Source of the DNA: an uncultured Dehalococcoidia bacterium
GTDB lineage: Bacteria; Chloroflexota; Dehalococcoidia; Lucifugimonadales; G958296245
Assembly: GCA_958296245.1 (NCBI GenBank)
Contig: OY282458.1
Location: 2,160,197 to 2,224,196, forward strand
Reading direction: 5' to 3'
DNA: 64,000 bases
Part shown: piece by piece, positions 10,532 to 61,801 of the stretch
Position numbering within the stretch: position 1 is the stretch's first letter
How the letters are laid out: every line of letters starts with the position of its first letter
Notes under the pieces: model-generated
What the model was told of the DNA's origin: nothing
Seen by the model: the letters and a program-made list of their open reading frames with translations, nothing else
Database searches by the model: none
Made by a program: the position numbers and the translations under genes

Positions 10532-10762
10532 GAAGCTGTTCAGCCTCTGCGAGACCTGAAGGGGGAAGTCCAGAGGGATTCTCCCCTCTGACAGGGGGTC
10601 TGGGCGCCTGTGCCAGCTCCGCGTCCGTGATGGCCCGGTTCTCCTCTGACAGGGAGTCTGAGGGCTGTGCCCTAGTTGCCAAGGGGCGGGCGGGAATCAA
10701 AGACGTCTGATTTATTGGGGCTGCGTCAGTAGAAAAGGACCTCACGAACTCTGAACGGTTAC
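10532..10762 (+). repeat. Promoter-proximal inverted-repeat element, copy 1
   Basis: About 231 bp. The left end AGCTGTTCAGCCTCTGCGAG and the right end CTCACGAACTCTGAACGGTT are imperfect inverted repeats of each other. The body has two CTCCYCTGACAGGG boxes and ends in AAGACGTCTGATTTATTGGG, the block shared by all copies. It fills the space between the divergent promoters of the corrinoid operon and the sulfatase-fold operon. Its right end lies 15 bp from the -35 at 10778. Confidence 0.8.
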
Positions 10763-12756: not shown

Positions 12757-14174
12757 ATCGGATTCTGACCGCGGACGGCGGATCATTCAAGGACCCTGTG
12801 GGGCGAGTGTACCGGATTCCAAGGGAAACGGGCGGCGAGCGCATCGTTCGCGGGCTGAATCAAACAGGAGCCGCTTCTATGGAGAGGCTTCTCGCCGAGC
12901 CCTTCTTCCAAGAGTTGGCGCGCGGCGGACACGTCGTGAAGACCGGACTGCTCGGCGCCGAAGACCCCGCCGCCCGGCGCGTAATGGAAGAGGGTTGGAG
13001 GGGCGCGGCGGAACACGAAGCCATAGACTTCGTCACTTATCCTTACGAGTGGCCGTTTTCGATGCTCAAAGACGCGGCGCTGCTGCAACTGCGCCTGCTG
13101 GAAACGAGCGTGCAGAACGGCTGGATGCTCAAGGACGCGACACCGTTCAACATCCAGTGGAACGGGGCGCGGCCAGTCTTCATTGACGTGCCGTCGTTCG
13201 TGCCGTGGGAGAGCGGCGAATACTGGCAGGGCTATAGGCAGTTCTGCTCTACGTTCCTGACGCCGTTGATGTTGACTGCTCACCTGGGAATCCCGTTCCA
13301 GCCCCTGCTCCGCTCACGACTGGAGGGCGTCCCGCCGGAAGAAGCGGCGAAATACTTCTACGGGCTGCGGCGATTCAAGCGCGGTGTGCTGTCCCATATC
13401 TGGTTTCCGGCCAAGGCGGAGAGCCGGATGCGGCGCCGGGATGGTTCGCGGCAACCCGAGCGGTCGCGGCGTCAGCAGCCTAAGACGATGCTTCTGGGCT
13501 TGCTGGACAGCCTGAAGCGGCTCGTCGCCGGGCTGTCCTACGGTACGCCGAGCTCGGACTGGTCCCAGTACGTGGGGACCTGCTCCTACGACGAGGCGGA
13601 CTTCCAGCGGAAGAAGGATTTCGTGGAACGACACACGTCGGCGAGGCGTCCAGACTTGACCTGGGACCTGGGCGCGAACACGGGGACGTTCTCCCGCATC
13701 GCGGCGCGCCGCTCGCGGCTGGTCGTTGCCGTGGACGACGACCAAGACGCGGTGGAGATGCTCTACCACGAGGCGCGCGGCGGCAGCCTCCGGAACATCG
13801 TCCCCCTCGTGATGGATATGTCGAACCTGTCGCCCGGCCAGGGATGGGCGGGACGTGAGCGCGCGGCGTTTGACCAAAGGGCAAGCCCCGACGTGGTGCT
13901 CTGCCTCGCTCTGGTCCACCACGTGCGCGTCTCAGCCAACATCCCCTTGCCGCTGTTCCTTGGCTGGCTCCGCAGCCTGAACGCGACAATCATCCTGGAG
14001 TTCGTCGGGCGCGACGACGAGATGTTCGGGAAGCTCTTGGAGAACAAGCGCGAGGACTATGCGGACTACACCTCGGAGAACTTCGAAGCGGAGACCCGCA
14101 GGCTCTTCTCAATCAACGATCGGTTGCAATTGAAGGGTGGGATGCGGGAGATGTTCCTGTTGGAGCCGGCGTGA
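12753..14174 (+). CDS. NoeA-like SAM-dependent methyltransferase
   Basis: A 473-residue protein with a GTG start (12753) that overlaps the previous stop by four bases. The N-terminal 200 residues resemble a lipopolysaccharide-kinase-like fold: MLKDATPFNIQWNGARPVFIDVPSFVPWESG keeps an 'D-x-x-x-x-N ... D' pattern. The C-terminal part is a class I methyltransferase with motif I DLGANTGTFSRIAARRS (about residues 305-321) and an acidic VVAVDDDQDAVE loop that binds SAM ribose. This two-part layout is that of nodulation-protein NoeA-like methyltransferases. Last gene of the cassette. Acceptor unknown, probably a surface saccharide. Confidence 0.7.
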   Translation: MNRILTADGGSFKDPVGRVYRIPRETGGERIVRGLNQTGAASMERLLAEPFFQELARGGHVVKTGLLGAEDPAARRVMEEGWRGAAEHEAIDFVTYPYEWPFSMLKDAALLQLRLLETSVQNGWMLKDATPFNIQWNGARPVFIDVPSFVPWESGEYWQGYRQFCSTFLTPLMLTAHLGIPFQPLLRSRLEGVPPEEAAKYFYGLRRFKRGVLSHIWFPAKAESRMRRRDGSRQPERSRRQQPKTMLLGLLDSLKRLVAGLSYGTPSSDWSQYVGTCSYDEADFQRKKDFVERHTSARRPDLTWDLGANTGTFSRIAARRSRLVVAVDDDQDAVEMLYHEARGGSLRNIVPLVMDMSNLSPGQGWAGRERAAFDQRASPDVVLCLALVHHVRVSANIPLPLFLGWLRSLNATIILEFVGRDDEMFGKLLENKREDYADYTSENFEAETRRLFSINDRLQLKGGMREMFLLEPA

Positions 14175-14269: not shown

Positions 14270-14400
14270 CCCCCCAGCACAGGCAGGGGGTCTGTGAGCT
14301 GTGCCCCCAGTTACCAAGGGGCGGGCGGGTGGGAATCAAGGACGTCTGCTTTATCGGGGCTGCGCCAGTCAAAAAGGATCTCACGAAGTCTGAACTGCAA
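14270..14400 (+). repeat. Promoter-proximal inverted-repeat element, copy 2 (left end lost)
   Basis: About 130 bp. It keeps the AGGCAGGGGGTCTG hairpin part, CAGTTACCAAGGGGCGGGCG, the GACGTCTGCTTTATCGGGGC block and the right end GGATCTCACGAAGTCTGAAC. The left terminal repeat is missing. Its right end lies about 4 bp from the -35 of the RRM gene. Confidence 0.75.
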
Positions 14401-14813: not shown

Positions 14814-14866
14814 GCCGTCCAACCGGGGACTGTTCACAGACCCCTCAGCCTCGCGGGGCGGAAGCC

Positions 14867-15462
14867 GTCCCGTAATTGGCGTATGTGGTTCTCCCGGGTC
14901 GGGAGAACCACATAGCTTGGCTGGAACTCCCGCCCGGTAAGACCCGGTCCGCCGTGTAGTCCTGGGACGTACAGGCTTCAGCCTGCGCGTCCCAGTTCAT
15001 CGCCTCCAGCAGAACACGGCCATCCACGTCGGGAGGTCCCTTCACGCCAAGAGGGTTGAGCGCCGTCCCGTAATTGGCGTATGTGGTTCTCCCGGGTCGG
15101 GAGAACCACATGCCTTGGCTGTAAAACTCCCGCCCGGTAAGACCCGGTCCGCCGTGTAGTCCTGGGACGTACAGGCTTCAGCCTGCGCGTCCCAGTTCAT
15201 CGCCTCCAGCAGAACACGGCCATCCGCGTCGGGAGGTCCCTTCACGCCAAGCGGGCAGAAGCCGTCCCGTAATTGGCGTATGTGGTTCTCCCGACCCGGG
15301 AGACCGATACGACTTGGCTGTAACTCCCGCCCGGTAAGACCCGGTCCGCCGTGTAGTCCTGGGACGTACAGGCTTCAGCCTTCGCGTCCCAGTTCATCGC
15401 CTCCAGCAGAACACGGCCATCCACGTCGGGAGGCCCCTTCACGCCAAGCAGGTTGAGCGCCG
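14867..15462. repeat. Three tandem 198-bp copies of the phosphodiesterase gene 3' end
   Basis: GTCCCGTAATTGGCG begins at 14867, 15065 and 15264, giving a period of 198-199 bases. The rightmost unit is the real 3' end of the gene on the minus strand; the other two lie beyond its stop. Each unit repeats the codons for GVKGPPDVDGRVLLEAMNWD, then ACTSQDYTADRVLPGGS and RTTYANYGTAS, with a few changes. A 9-base inverted repeat TCTCCCGGG/CCCGGGAGA-like palindrome (about 14893-14910, CTCCCGGGTCGGGAG) lies in the outer copies. Confidence 0.9.
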
Positions 15463-16690
15463 TCGGCGCTACGTCGACGTTCCCAGTCGGCAGCTCCGAT
15501 ACTGTAGTGCGCTTGAACCCTGGGCCTGCGGCGACCAGGGTGCAGCGCATCTCGTGGGCGCTCATTGAACCGTGCATCCCCAGACCCGGCGCCGCGCCGG
15601 CACAATAGGCGTGTCCGGGTACGCCCGCGTCGTTCTCCTCAGAGTTCCAGGCCAGCGAGAGCGCCAGATCCGGAGCGCGCGGCCCCTCGGACCCTACGGC
15701 CTCCGCGGGCGCCGTTCCCTCTATCGGGCCGACGGCTCCCGAGGCCACGAGCGCGCCGCACCACGGCTGCCGCATCAGCCAGACGGCGAGCCTGTCCGCA
15801 GTCTCACGTTCCCGGTTGTGCGCGTAGAAGAGCACCGCCCCGCCGTTGGCTGCTACGGCCACGCCGCCGCGCTGCTCAATCCCTGGGAATCCTGCCGCTC
15901 TCAGCATGGATTCGACCGGAACGGTCTCGCTCACTGTCGAGTAGCCATGATCGGATACCACCATCAAGTTGGTGTCGGCGCCCCGCCCCGTCCTGTCCAA
16001 CTCCTCGAAGAGGACGCCCAGTTCGTTGTCGAGGTGACGGAGGGCGCGGGCGGCCTTTTCCGAACTCACGCCGGAGGCGTGCTGTGACGAATCGGGTTCC
16101 GAGCTCCAGAAGAACGCCGCCTCCGGCGGACGGTCGGAGAAGACCACGCTGCGGAATATCTTCATGGCGTGGGAAATCCGCGCCAGGTCGGGCCGGCGCT
16201 TCGGAGGCCATCCACCGAAGCGCGCCTCCAACTCCGAGCCGAAGCCCGCCGGGATGGTGAATTCGGGATGAATGGTCGCCCCTCCGCCGCCGTCCGGGTG
16301 GGGGTTCTGCACAAACGCGTTGCCGCTGCTGCCGGCGTTCACCGATACGAACTTAAGCCCGGAAGCCGCGAGGATCTCGGGCAGCGTCGGGGCTAGCAAA
16401 ACCCTTCCGGTCGCCTCCATGATGCCGGTCAGGTCGGGCCTGAGAGCCTGTACGACCCTCCTCGGGTCGTAGTCCCTGACGAGCAGCGTATTCCCGGCAA
16501 GTCCATGCCCGCCGGGGTGGCGCCCCGTAACCATGCTGGCGCAGTTCACGCGCGTGACGGTGGGAAACGCGGAGTGGTGGTTGGCGAAGGTAACGCCCTG
16601 CGCGGCTAGGGCGCTCAGGTTGGGCATCAGGCCGGGCGTGACCTGCGAAGGTTGCAGGCCGTCGATCCCAATGATCAGTACGGAAGTCAT
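15242..16690 (-). CDS. Alkaline-phosphatase-superfamily phosphodiesterase/nucleotide pyrophosphatase
   Basis: A 482-residue soluble enzyme of the NPP-like family. VLIIGIDGLQPSQV gives the first metal Asp, FPTVTRVNCASMVTGRHPGGHG the nucleophile Thr (in PTVTR) and the following family block, and VVSDHGYSTVSE the second metal site. No signal peptide or membrane helix is seen. The ATG (16688-16690) follows the upstream metallopeptidase-like gene by one base, with GGAGGG inside that gene's end, so both are one operon. The last 65 codons form the first of three tandem 3' units, so the original C-terminus may have been shorter or different. Likely hydrolyses a phosphodiester or phosphonate; the substrate cannot be read from sequence. 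Confidence 0.82.
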   Translation of the reverse strand: MTSVLIIGIDGLQPSQVTPGLMPNLSALAAQGVTFANHHSAFPTVTRVNCASMVTGRHPGGHGLAGNTLLVRDYDPRRVVQALRPDLTGIMEATGRVLLAPTLPEILAASGLKFVSVNAGSSGNAFVQNPHPDGGGGATIHPEFTIPAGFGSELEARFGGWPPKRRPDLARISHAMKIFRSVVFSDRPPEAAFFWSSEPDSSQHASGVSSEKAARALRHLDNELGVLFEELDRTGRGADTNLMVVSDHGYSTVSETVPVESMLRAAGFPGIEQRGGVAVAANGGAVLFYAHNRERETADRLAVWLMRQPWCGALVASGAVGPIEGTAPAEAVGSEGPRAPDLALSLAWNSEENDAGVPGHAYCAGAAPGLGMHGSMSAHEMRCTLVAAGPGFKRTTVSELPTGNVDVAPTALNLLGVKGPPDVDGRVLLEAMNWDAKAEACTSQDYTADRVLPGGSYSQVVSVSRVGRTTYANYGTASARLA

Positions 16691-20133: not shown

Positions 20134-20267
20134 GTTGACTGTTCAGACTTCGTGAGGTCCTTTTCGACCGGCGCAGCCCCGATAAAGCAGACGTCTTTAG
20201 ATTCCCACCCACCCGCCCCTTGGTAACTGGGGGCGCAGCCCCCAGACCCCTGCCTGAGGGGAGAACC
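20134..20267 (-). repeat. Promoter-proximal inverted-repeat element, copy 3 (minus orientation, distal end lost)
   Basis: Read on the minus strand it carries CAGTTACCAAGGGGCGGGTG, AGACGTCTGCTTTATCGGGG, then CCTCACGAAGTCTGAACAGT as the gene-facing end. GGGGGCTGCGCCCCCAG makes the internal hairpin. Its far side meets the dispersed AAATTGTCATTCGAACGCAG repeat at about 20270. Confidence 0.8.
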
Positions 20268-20351
20268 TCCCCAAATTGTCATTCGAACGCAGTGAGAAGG
20301 CCGGCTGGATGGGAGTAGCAGGCGCAGCTCATGGCGCTGACTCAGCGTACG

Positions 20352-61097: not shown

Positions 61098-61106
61098 CCT
61101 TGCAGC

Positions 61107-61376
61107 GTAACTGTTCAGGCTCTGTGAGACCCGAAGGGGGGAGTCCAGAGGTTCTTCCCTCTGGGCAGGGTCTGGGAGCAGGCGAGACGCCTGCGCTCCA
61201 GGCCGGAAGTTCTCCCCTCCGGCCCGAAGGGGGGAGTCGAGGACATTCTCCCCTCTGACAGGGGGTCTGGGGGCTGTGCCCCCAGTTACCAAGGGGCGAG
61301 TGGGTGGGGATCAAAAACGTCTGCTCTATCGGGATACGCCAGTCGAAAAAGGATCTCACGAAGACTGAACAGTTAC
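61107..61376 (+). repeat. Promoter-proximal inverted-repeat element, copy 4 (full length, 270 bp)
   Basis: The fullest copy. Ends GTAACTGTTCAGGCTCTGTGAGA and TCTCACGAAGACTGAACAGTTAC pair as an imperfect 23-base terminal inverted repeat (the outer 12 bases are perfect). CTTGCAGC flanks it directly on both sides (61099-61106 and 61377-61384), a likely target-site duplication. The body has two CTCCCYTCTG boxes and a GGGGGCTGTGCCCCCAG hairpin at about 61267-61285. Confidence 0.9.
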
Positions 61377-61394
61377 CTTGCAGCAACGCTAAGC

Positions 61395-61571
61395 GTAACT
61401 GTTCAGGCTCTGTGAGACACGAAGGGGGGAGTCGAGGACATTCTCCCTTCTGACAGGGGTCTGGGGGCTGTGCCCCCAGTTACCAAGGGGCGGGTGGGTG
61501 GGGATCAAAAACGTCTGCTCTATCGGGATTACCCCAGTCGAAAAAGGATCTCACGAAGACTGAACAGTTAC
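61395..61571 (+). repeat. Promoter-proximal inverted-repeat element, copy 5 (177 bp)
   Basis: Same ends as copy 4. About 90 bp of the left half are lost. It follows copy 4 after CTTGCAGCAACGCTAAGC, an 18-base spacer that also follows copy 5, so copies 5 and 6 look like tandem duplications of element plus spacer. Confidence 0.9.
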
Positions 61572-61589
61572 CTTGCAGCAACGCTAAGC

Positions 61590-61755
61590 GTAACCGTTCA
61601 GGCTCTGTGAGACACGAAGGGGGGAGTCGAGGACATTCTTCCTTCTGACAGGGGGTCTGGGGGCTGTGCCCCAGTTACCAAGGGGCGGGTGGGTGGGAAT
61701 CAAAAACGTCTGCTCTATCGGGATTACGCCAGTAGAACGAAGACTGAACAGTTAC
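61590..61755 (+). repeat. Promoter-proximal inverted-repeat element, copy 6 (166 bp)
   Basis: Left end GTAACCGTTCAG, right end CTGAACAGTTAC. The AAAGGATCTCACG stretch just before the right end has been lost. Its right end lies 16 bp from the -35 of the rpmH promoter. Confidence 0.9.
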
Positions 61756-61771
61756 CTTGCAGCAACGCTAA

Positions 61772-61801
61772 TTGACACTCGTTCGCGCGGGCGGCTAGAA
61801 T
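61772..61801 (+). promoter_or_regulatory. Promoter of rpmH-rnpA
   Basis: TTGACA (61772-61777, perfect), 18 bases, TAGAAT (61796-61801, five of six). The rpmH ATG follows 17 bases later, so the leader is very short. Confidence 0.7.

Follow-up and report, generated by a model that had tools for sequence, protein, structure and literature searches.

Tandem elements upstream of rpmH

The window is the whole stretch of 64,000 nucleotides that we analysed (genome positions 2160197-2224196); its host genome (G000) is a single contig of 2,685,284 bp. Towards its right end, upstream of an rpmH-like start and of rnpA (62001), lies a block at 61107-61755 that we read, with high confidence in the explanation as a whole including its CRISPR part, as an IS66-type MITE present in three copies in tandem (copies 4, 5 and 6; Table 1). 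No ORF of at least 100 amino acids spans 61099-61790. Directly after the array stands a promoter-like sequence, TTGACA-18-TAGAAT (61772-61801), with the rpmH-like start downstream of it; several other MITE copies also seem, by eye, to stop just upstream of a promoter-like sequence. A different tandem repeat, three copies of a unit of about 200 bp, lies at 14856-15464 and was unmatched by the MITE copies in BLAST. Rfam matches in the window were tRNAs only.

Table 1 Features of the MITE copies in the window (window positions)
Feature	Position	Strand	Basis or remark
Left target-site duplication copy, 8 bp, CTTGCAGC	61099..61106	.	Sequence; 8-bp duplication family-wide
MITE copy 4, 270 bp, ends GTAACTGTTCAG / CTGAACAGTTAC	61107..61376	+	Sequence
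Copy 4, first CRISPR-like repeat, divergent	61150..61176	+	Weak profile match, E 0.8
Copy 4, hairpin module in spacer position	61177..61207	+	Recurrent in other MITEs
Copy 4, last CRISPR-like repeat	61244..61271	+	
Right target-site duplication copy, 8 bp, CTTGCAGC	61377..61384	.	Sequence
18-bp spacer CTTGCAGCAACGCTAAGC between copies 4 and 5	61377..61394	+	Sequence
MITE copy 5, 177 bp; one CRISPR-like repeat at 61439-61465	61395..61571	+	
18-bp spacer between copies 5 and 6, identical to CTTGCAGCAACGCTAAGC	61572..61589	+	Sequence
MITE copy 6, 166 bp; one CRISPR-like repeat at 61634-61661	61590..61755	+	
Third flank copy CTTGCAGCAACGCTAA, then promoter-like TTGACA...TAGAAT	61756..61771	+	Promoter by eye
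Further MITE copy, 231 bp, flanks 6/8	10532..10762	+	
CRISPR-like repeat 1 of the copy at 10532	10577..10604	+	
Unique 32-bp spacer of the copy at 10532	10605..10636	+	
CRISPR-like repeat 2 of the copy at 10532	10637..10662	+	
Truncated MITE copy	14284..14395	+	
Truncated MITE copy	20138..20269	-	
Source of the spacer at genome 165805 (MITE at genome 165640-165931, 2 Mb away)	13668..13700	+	33 bp identical

A sequence-only reading of this DNA had described CTTGCAGC as directly flanking copy 4 on both sides, and the match is exact: the octamer abuts GTAACTG (61107) on the left and CAGTTAC (ending at 61376) on the right, and occurs again at 61572 and 61756. As a word it is not rare (4 occurrences in the window against 2.26 expected), and we estimate the chance of an 8/8 flank match at fixed ends and family-set length at about 1 in 30,000, given a per-base match rate of 0.271. 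The flanks of copies 5 and 6 are repeats of one spacer, match at 4/8 only and are not duplications, as expected if these copies arose by tandem duplication. The same reading had proposed later amplification of the element together with a repeated 18-base spacer, which fits: CTTGCAGCAACGCTAAGC stands at both the 4/5 and the 5/6 junction, CTTGCAGCAACGCTAA follows copy 6, and duplicating GC-element-CTTGCAGCAACGCTAA reproduces the observed order of copies and spacers exactly. Copies 4 and 5 differ by 93 bp situated between direct repeats, and tandem MITE arrays occur elsewhere in the host genome as well. One MITE copy inserted at CTTGCAGC, upstream of the promoter-like sequence and rpmH-rnpA, leaving the 8-bp duplication that the sequence retains, and the MITE with 16-18 bp of flank would later have been duplicated in tandem.

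An orphan MITE family with IS66-type ends

Matches to the family ends number 271 in the genome at up to 3 mismatches, against 1 in a reversed control. Pairing ends by a fixed pattern among the matches listed, and dropping copies with a damaged end, gave 64 two-ended copies. These span 98-400 bp, most of them 150-310 bp. The element carries no transposase gene and has terminal inverted repeat arms of 23-32 nt that are 81-87% complementary. When left and right flanks were compared at lengths 2 to 14, 8 bp alone stood out, with a mean identity of 0.576 against 0.271 for swapped flanks and a perfect match in 14/64 copies; at least 6 of 8 bases matched in 28/64 copies and in 34/4032 swapped pairs. 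The family thus has the features of a MITE: short length without a transposase gene, terminal inverted repeats, a target-site duplication of fixed length (8 bp) and many dispersed copies. The duplication that had been proposed for copy 4 is real, and other full copies also have one, at exactly 8 bp. In three loci (L182, L215 and L169) the same ends enclose different interiors, rich in a TCATTCTGAGGAGCGCAGCGACGAAGAATC-like repeat; these may be additional subfamilies that move by means of these ends.

IS66 elements are characterized by GTAA ends and 8-bp duplications, and the MITEs have both. The sequence-only reading had suggested looking for a transposase gene in the genome; the search for the IS66 transposase domain (PF03050) in the host gave no match (0/1), so the host MITEs are orphans, although a partner in the same genome is not defining for a MITE. 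PF03050 is present in 15/250 genomes of the order; no genome of the host's own genus or family was found. Among 27 loci from relatives, three (L096, L100 and L109) match 20/22 terminal bases and have GTAACTGTTCAG ends and perfect 8-bp duplications, and two others (L117 and L118) are one and the same IS66 element with a duplication matching at 7/8. The L100 element, about 1.43 kb long, has a single 466-aa gene that matches PF03050 and zf-IS66. Overall, the IS66 copies of relatives share with the MITE the same 12-bp end, similar inner bases and the same duplication length. On these sequence grounds the MITE most likely derives from IS66 and at present lacks a partner in its host. Movement in trans, as the sequence-only reading had it, fits these ends and this duplication length in a host without the transposase, which would have acted in trans and is now absent from the genome.

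Two other accounts of the element and its flanks were considered. The failure to match an IS66 transposase in the host would favour another transposase family that also makes 8-bp duplications; the 12-bp end, similar inner bases and duplication length shared with the order's IS66 copies argue against this, and we regard it as highly improbable. It is also very unlikely that the left CTTGCAGC is a remnant of the 18-bp tandem spacer, left by a 10-bp loss between the two GC dinucleotides. Such a loss can indeed turn CTTGCAGCAACGCTAAGC into CTTGCAGC, but it needs one more lost copy on the left, whereas the family-wide duplications of exactly 8 bp account for the left flank without it.

A CRISPR-like interior

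The more important feature of these elements, missed in the sequence-only reading, is their CRISPR-like interior. It contains a 28-bp palindromic segment, GGTTCTCCCCTCTGGCAGGGGGTCTGGG, which is single in most copies near 175 bp; longer copies have two to five such segments, separated by other sequence. We searched a profile of this segment in 54% of the genome and obtained 177 matches at E up to 1, with 51 neighbouring pairs 20-80 bp apart in 27 loci. The start-to-start distance is 60-62 bp in 32/51 pairs (61 in 22, 60 in 8 and 62 in 2) and 71-73 bp in 8, the remainder lying at 55-59 or 63-64 bp. The gaps measure 32-34 bp in 33/51 pairs (33 in 22, 32 in 8 and 34 in 3) and are mostly unique in sequence; a first pass on 10% of the genome had given the same picture of the geometry. 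The longest array of unique spacers (1848716, L199) comprises four of them between five repeats. Regular repeats separated by unique spacers of fixed length, as in a type I-E array, are therefore present in the MITEs.

Spacers are not common to different loci, with the exception of a hairpin module that is also found elsewhere in MITEs; those that recur are this module, in several MITEs, and repeated spacers within arrays. Because the module recurs in other MITEs, we did not count the one in copy 4 as a captured spacer. A module like GGGAGCAGGCGGGACGCCTGCGCTCC is present in many MITEs, copy 4 included, and in two nearby MITEs of opposite orientation (L171 and L172, genome 1028011-1029480) the palindromic module GGGAGCAGGCGGGACGCCTGCGCTCC forms repeats of period 71. 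At genome 966-1240 (L121), six repeats with nearly identical spacers follow one another in 61-bp steps; here a single unit has expanded in tandem. The arrays of period 71 to 73, which hold other repeated modules, and the array of near-identical spacers at 966 are not explained by spacer capture or by Cas1-Cas2.

Geometry shared with the resident type I-E system

The host genome has three cas1 loci. One belongs to a complete type I-E locus (Cas3, Cse1, Cse2, Cas7, Cas5, Cas6, Cas1 and Cas2), and the resident I-E array (2089299-2093231) has 64 repeats and 62 spacers, all of 33 bp, giving a unit of 28 + 33 bp. A 61-bp period is also found in the I-E arrays of five relatives. Because the spacers of the other two resident arrays measure 34-41 and 38-40 bp, the MITE unit is that of the I-E array and of no other resident array, and we rejected the other two systems as the integrating agent. 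The MITE repeat is nearer to the I-E repeat than are shuffled sequences (0.0065 and 0.0115 for the two strands) and not nearer to the other two, but the likeness is modest and falls short of identity or near-identity. The MITE arrays would therefore work like the resident array without being members of its family. Elsewhere in the genome, a CRISPR array of more than 120 repeats adjoins a Cas4-Cas1-like gene (L226, genome 995500-1004597, extending further left), and its repeat core recurs in an array of a relative, G022.

Chromosomal sources of four spacers

We traced sources for 37 spacers of 26-36 bp, after removing within-array repeats and the copy 4 module; the hairpin module is present in four of them, so that 33 distinct MITE spacers remain. 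Four of these 33 copy distant chromosomal DNA, compared with 0/62 resident I-E spacers (54% of the genome; one-sided Fisher 0.013). The traced spacers are those at 165805 (33/33 bases), 1543673 (32/33), 470780 and 549266, with matches of 48-64 bits against a best of 38.2 among 1110 shuffled spacers. The source piece is 33 bp long in 4/4 cases. In E. coli the type I-E motif is AAG, the G of which is kept as the first spacer base; the source piece starts at the G of AAG in 2/4 cases (chance 0.0014), those of 470780 and 549266, and neither end of the other two pieces has an AAG. The MITE copies of the two AAG sources lost 1-2 and 4 bases, and such small losses from 33-bp pieces account for the odd spacer lengths of 29 and 31 bp. 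A further MITE spacer, at 1954372, has 19 bp in common with resident I-E spacer 24, in the same orientation; the maximum in 30 shuffled sets was 15.

Two further single spacers found no second place in a whole-genome search, and a comparison of three MITE arrays with phage records gave no convincing source. Three exact spacer patterns searched in IMG/VR gave one 18-base match, reaching at most one base into a spacer. The resident I-E array likewise gave nothing convincing against phage records (best E 0.008, scattered pieces), and the phage search of the MITE spacers is for that reason uninformative.

Probable spacer integration by Cas1-Cas2

The 28/33/61-bp geometry, the distant 33-bp chromosomal captures and the AAG register can be read directly in the sequence; Cas1-Cas2 would be the integrating agent. 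We propose that GGTTCTCCCCTCTGGCAGGGGGTCTGGG, 28 bp long and palindromic, serves as an accidental CRISPR repeat. Type I-E Cas1-Cas2 would integrate 33-bp prespacers at this MITE palindrome, which resembles the repeat, duplicating the 28-bp segment each time and turning dispersed MITE copies into mini-CRISPR arrays with a 61-bp unit and 1-4 spacers, most of them unique. We consider this explanation, an IS66-type tandem MITE with off-target spacer integration by type I-E Cas1-Cas2 at its palindrome, very probable when taken whole.

The order of events could also have been the reverse, with a MITE taking up a ready-made mini-CRISPR array and single-repeat copies as the end product of spacer loss by recombination. 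Direct repeats are prone to recombine, copies 5 and 6 resemble copy 4 less the 93 bp between direct repeats, and both copy 4 and the MITE at 294142 have the hairpin module in a spacer position. If the copies had lost spacers from a single ancestral array, however, shared spacers would be expected, and apart from that module none is shared across loci. Other genomes of the order have single cores without such arrays, so the 28-bp segment did not originate as a CRISPR array. We judge the reverse order distinctly unlikely.

An agent other than Cas1-Cas2 might instead have inserted the 33-bp segments, for example template switching at hairpins or some palindrome-using element yet to be recognized, and here the relative G022 (same order, 94% complete) bears on the question. 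It has the same MITE and array-bearing copies, some with 33-bp spacers, but gave no match to I-E Cas1 or Cas7e; the cell that carries the arrays thus has a complete I-E cas set in G000 and none that was found in G022. Because arrays are present there without I-E genes, either type I-E was lost or missed in G022 or another agent is capable of the same. The lack of AAG at two of the four sources and the repeats of period 71 to 73 also point to another agent. Yet a fixed length of 33 bp, a 28-bp duplication and a 61-bp unit equal to that of the resident I-E system are not expected of template switching, nor are AAG at 2/4 sources and the 19-bp overlap with a resident I-E spacer. We hold such an agent to be unlikely and favour Cas1-Cas2, with a type I-E system that would have been present in G022 in the past. 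A long MITE array in G022 (L317), a genome without an I-E cas match, has alternating repeated spacers in 60-bp steps.

The first third of an I-E guide must pair with its target. Both self-derived spacers with an AAG source have small deletions in that first third, whereas the two without AAG are intact or nearly intact, at 33/33 and 32/33, a pattern in four cases that is what selection against self-targeting would leave. We nevertheless think it unlikely that the MITE arrays are functional guide sources.

Relation to known systems and implications

The MITE arrays resemble type I-E CRISPR arrays in a palindromic repeat of 28 bp and spacers of 33 bp, together a 61-bp unit, in the uniqueness of most spacers and in AAG at 2/4 traced sources. 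They differ in that their repeat is not the resident one, in being tiny and scattered in transposons, and in having no known adjoining leader or cas genes. With IS66-family insertion sequences of the single-gene group and MITEs derived from insertion sequences they share GTAA ends, inverted repeats, 8-bp duplications and a PF03050 transposase in relatives; they are set apart by being gene-free, with a partner absent from the host and CRISPR-like units inside. Off-target spacer integration by Cas1-Cas2 is known: in the system of Nivala et al. 2018, as cited in passages of PMC9456107 and PMC11788318, Cas1-Cas2 puts spacers outside CRISPR arrays. There it occurred on overexpression, according to the relevant passage of PMC11788318, whereas here it would be natural and repeated, with one transposon family as the target. 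Ectopic acquisition in Streptococcus thermophilus (PMC7999890) likewise puts new spacers elsewhere than at the usual 5' end, but inside a true CRISPR array. A Porphyromonas gingivalis MITE also has repeated units inside a bacterial MITE, which the text of PMC4596501 that describes it presents as a minisatellite and not as unique captured spacers. Orphan and viral mini-arrays are discussed in PMC8616872. We found no report of CRISPR spacers inside MITEs in the open-licence PMC literature, and a review of prokaryotic MITEs (PMC10969869) mentions neither CRISPR, IS66 nor spacer.

As a practical warning, a small orphan CRISPR call may turn out to be a copy of a transposon. The origin of new CRISPR arrays is an open question, and a high-copy transposon here appears to supply seeds for integration; one genome offers a comparison of scattered copies with one, two and up to five repeats. 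If the MITE arrays guide no interference, they would be an unselected record of Cas1-Cas2 captures, host DNA included (4/33 against 0/62). If their guides were functional, the transposon family would serve as a mobile and dispersed store of CRISPR arrays, or else as a decoy that diverts the memory-making machinery of the host from the real array.
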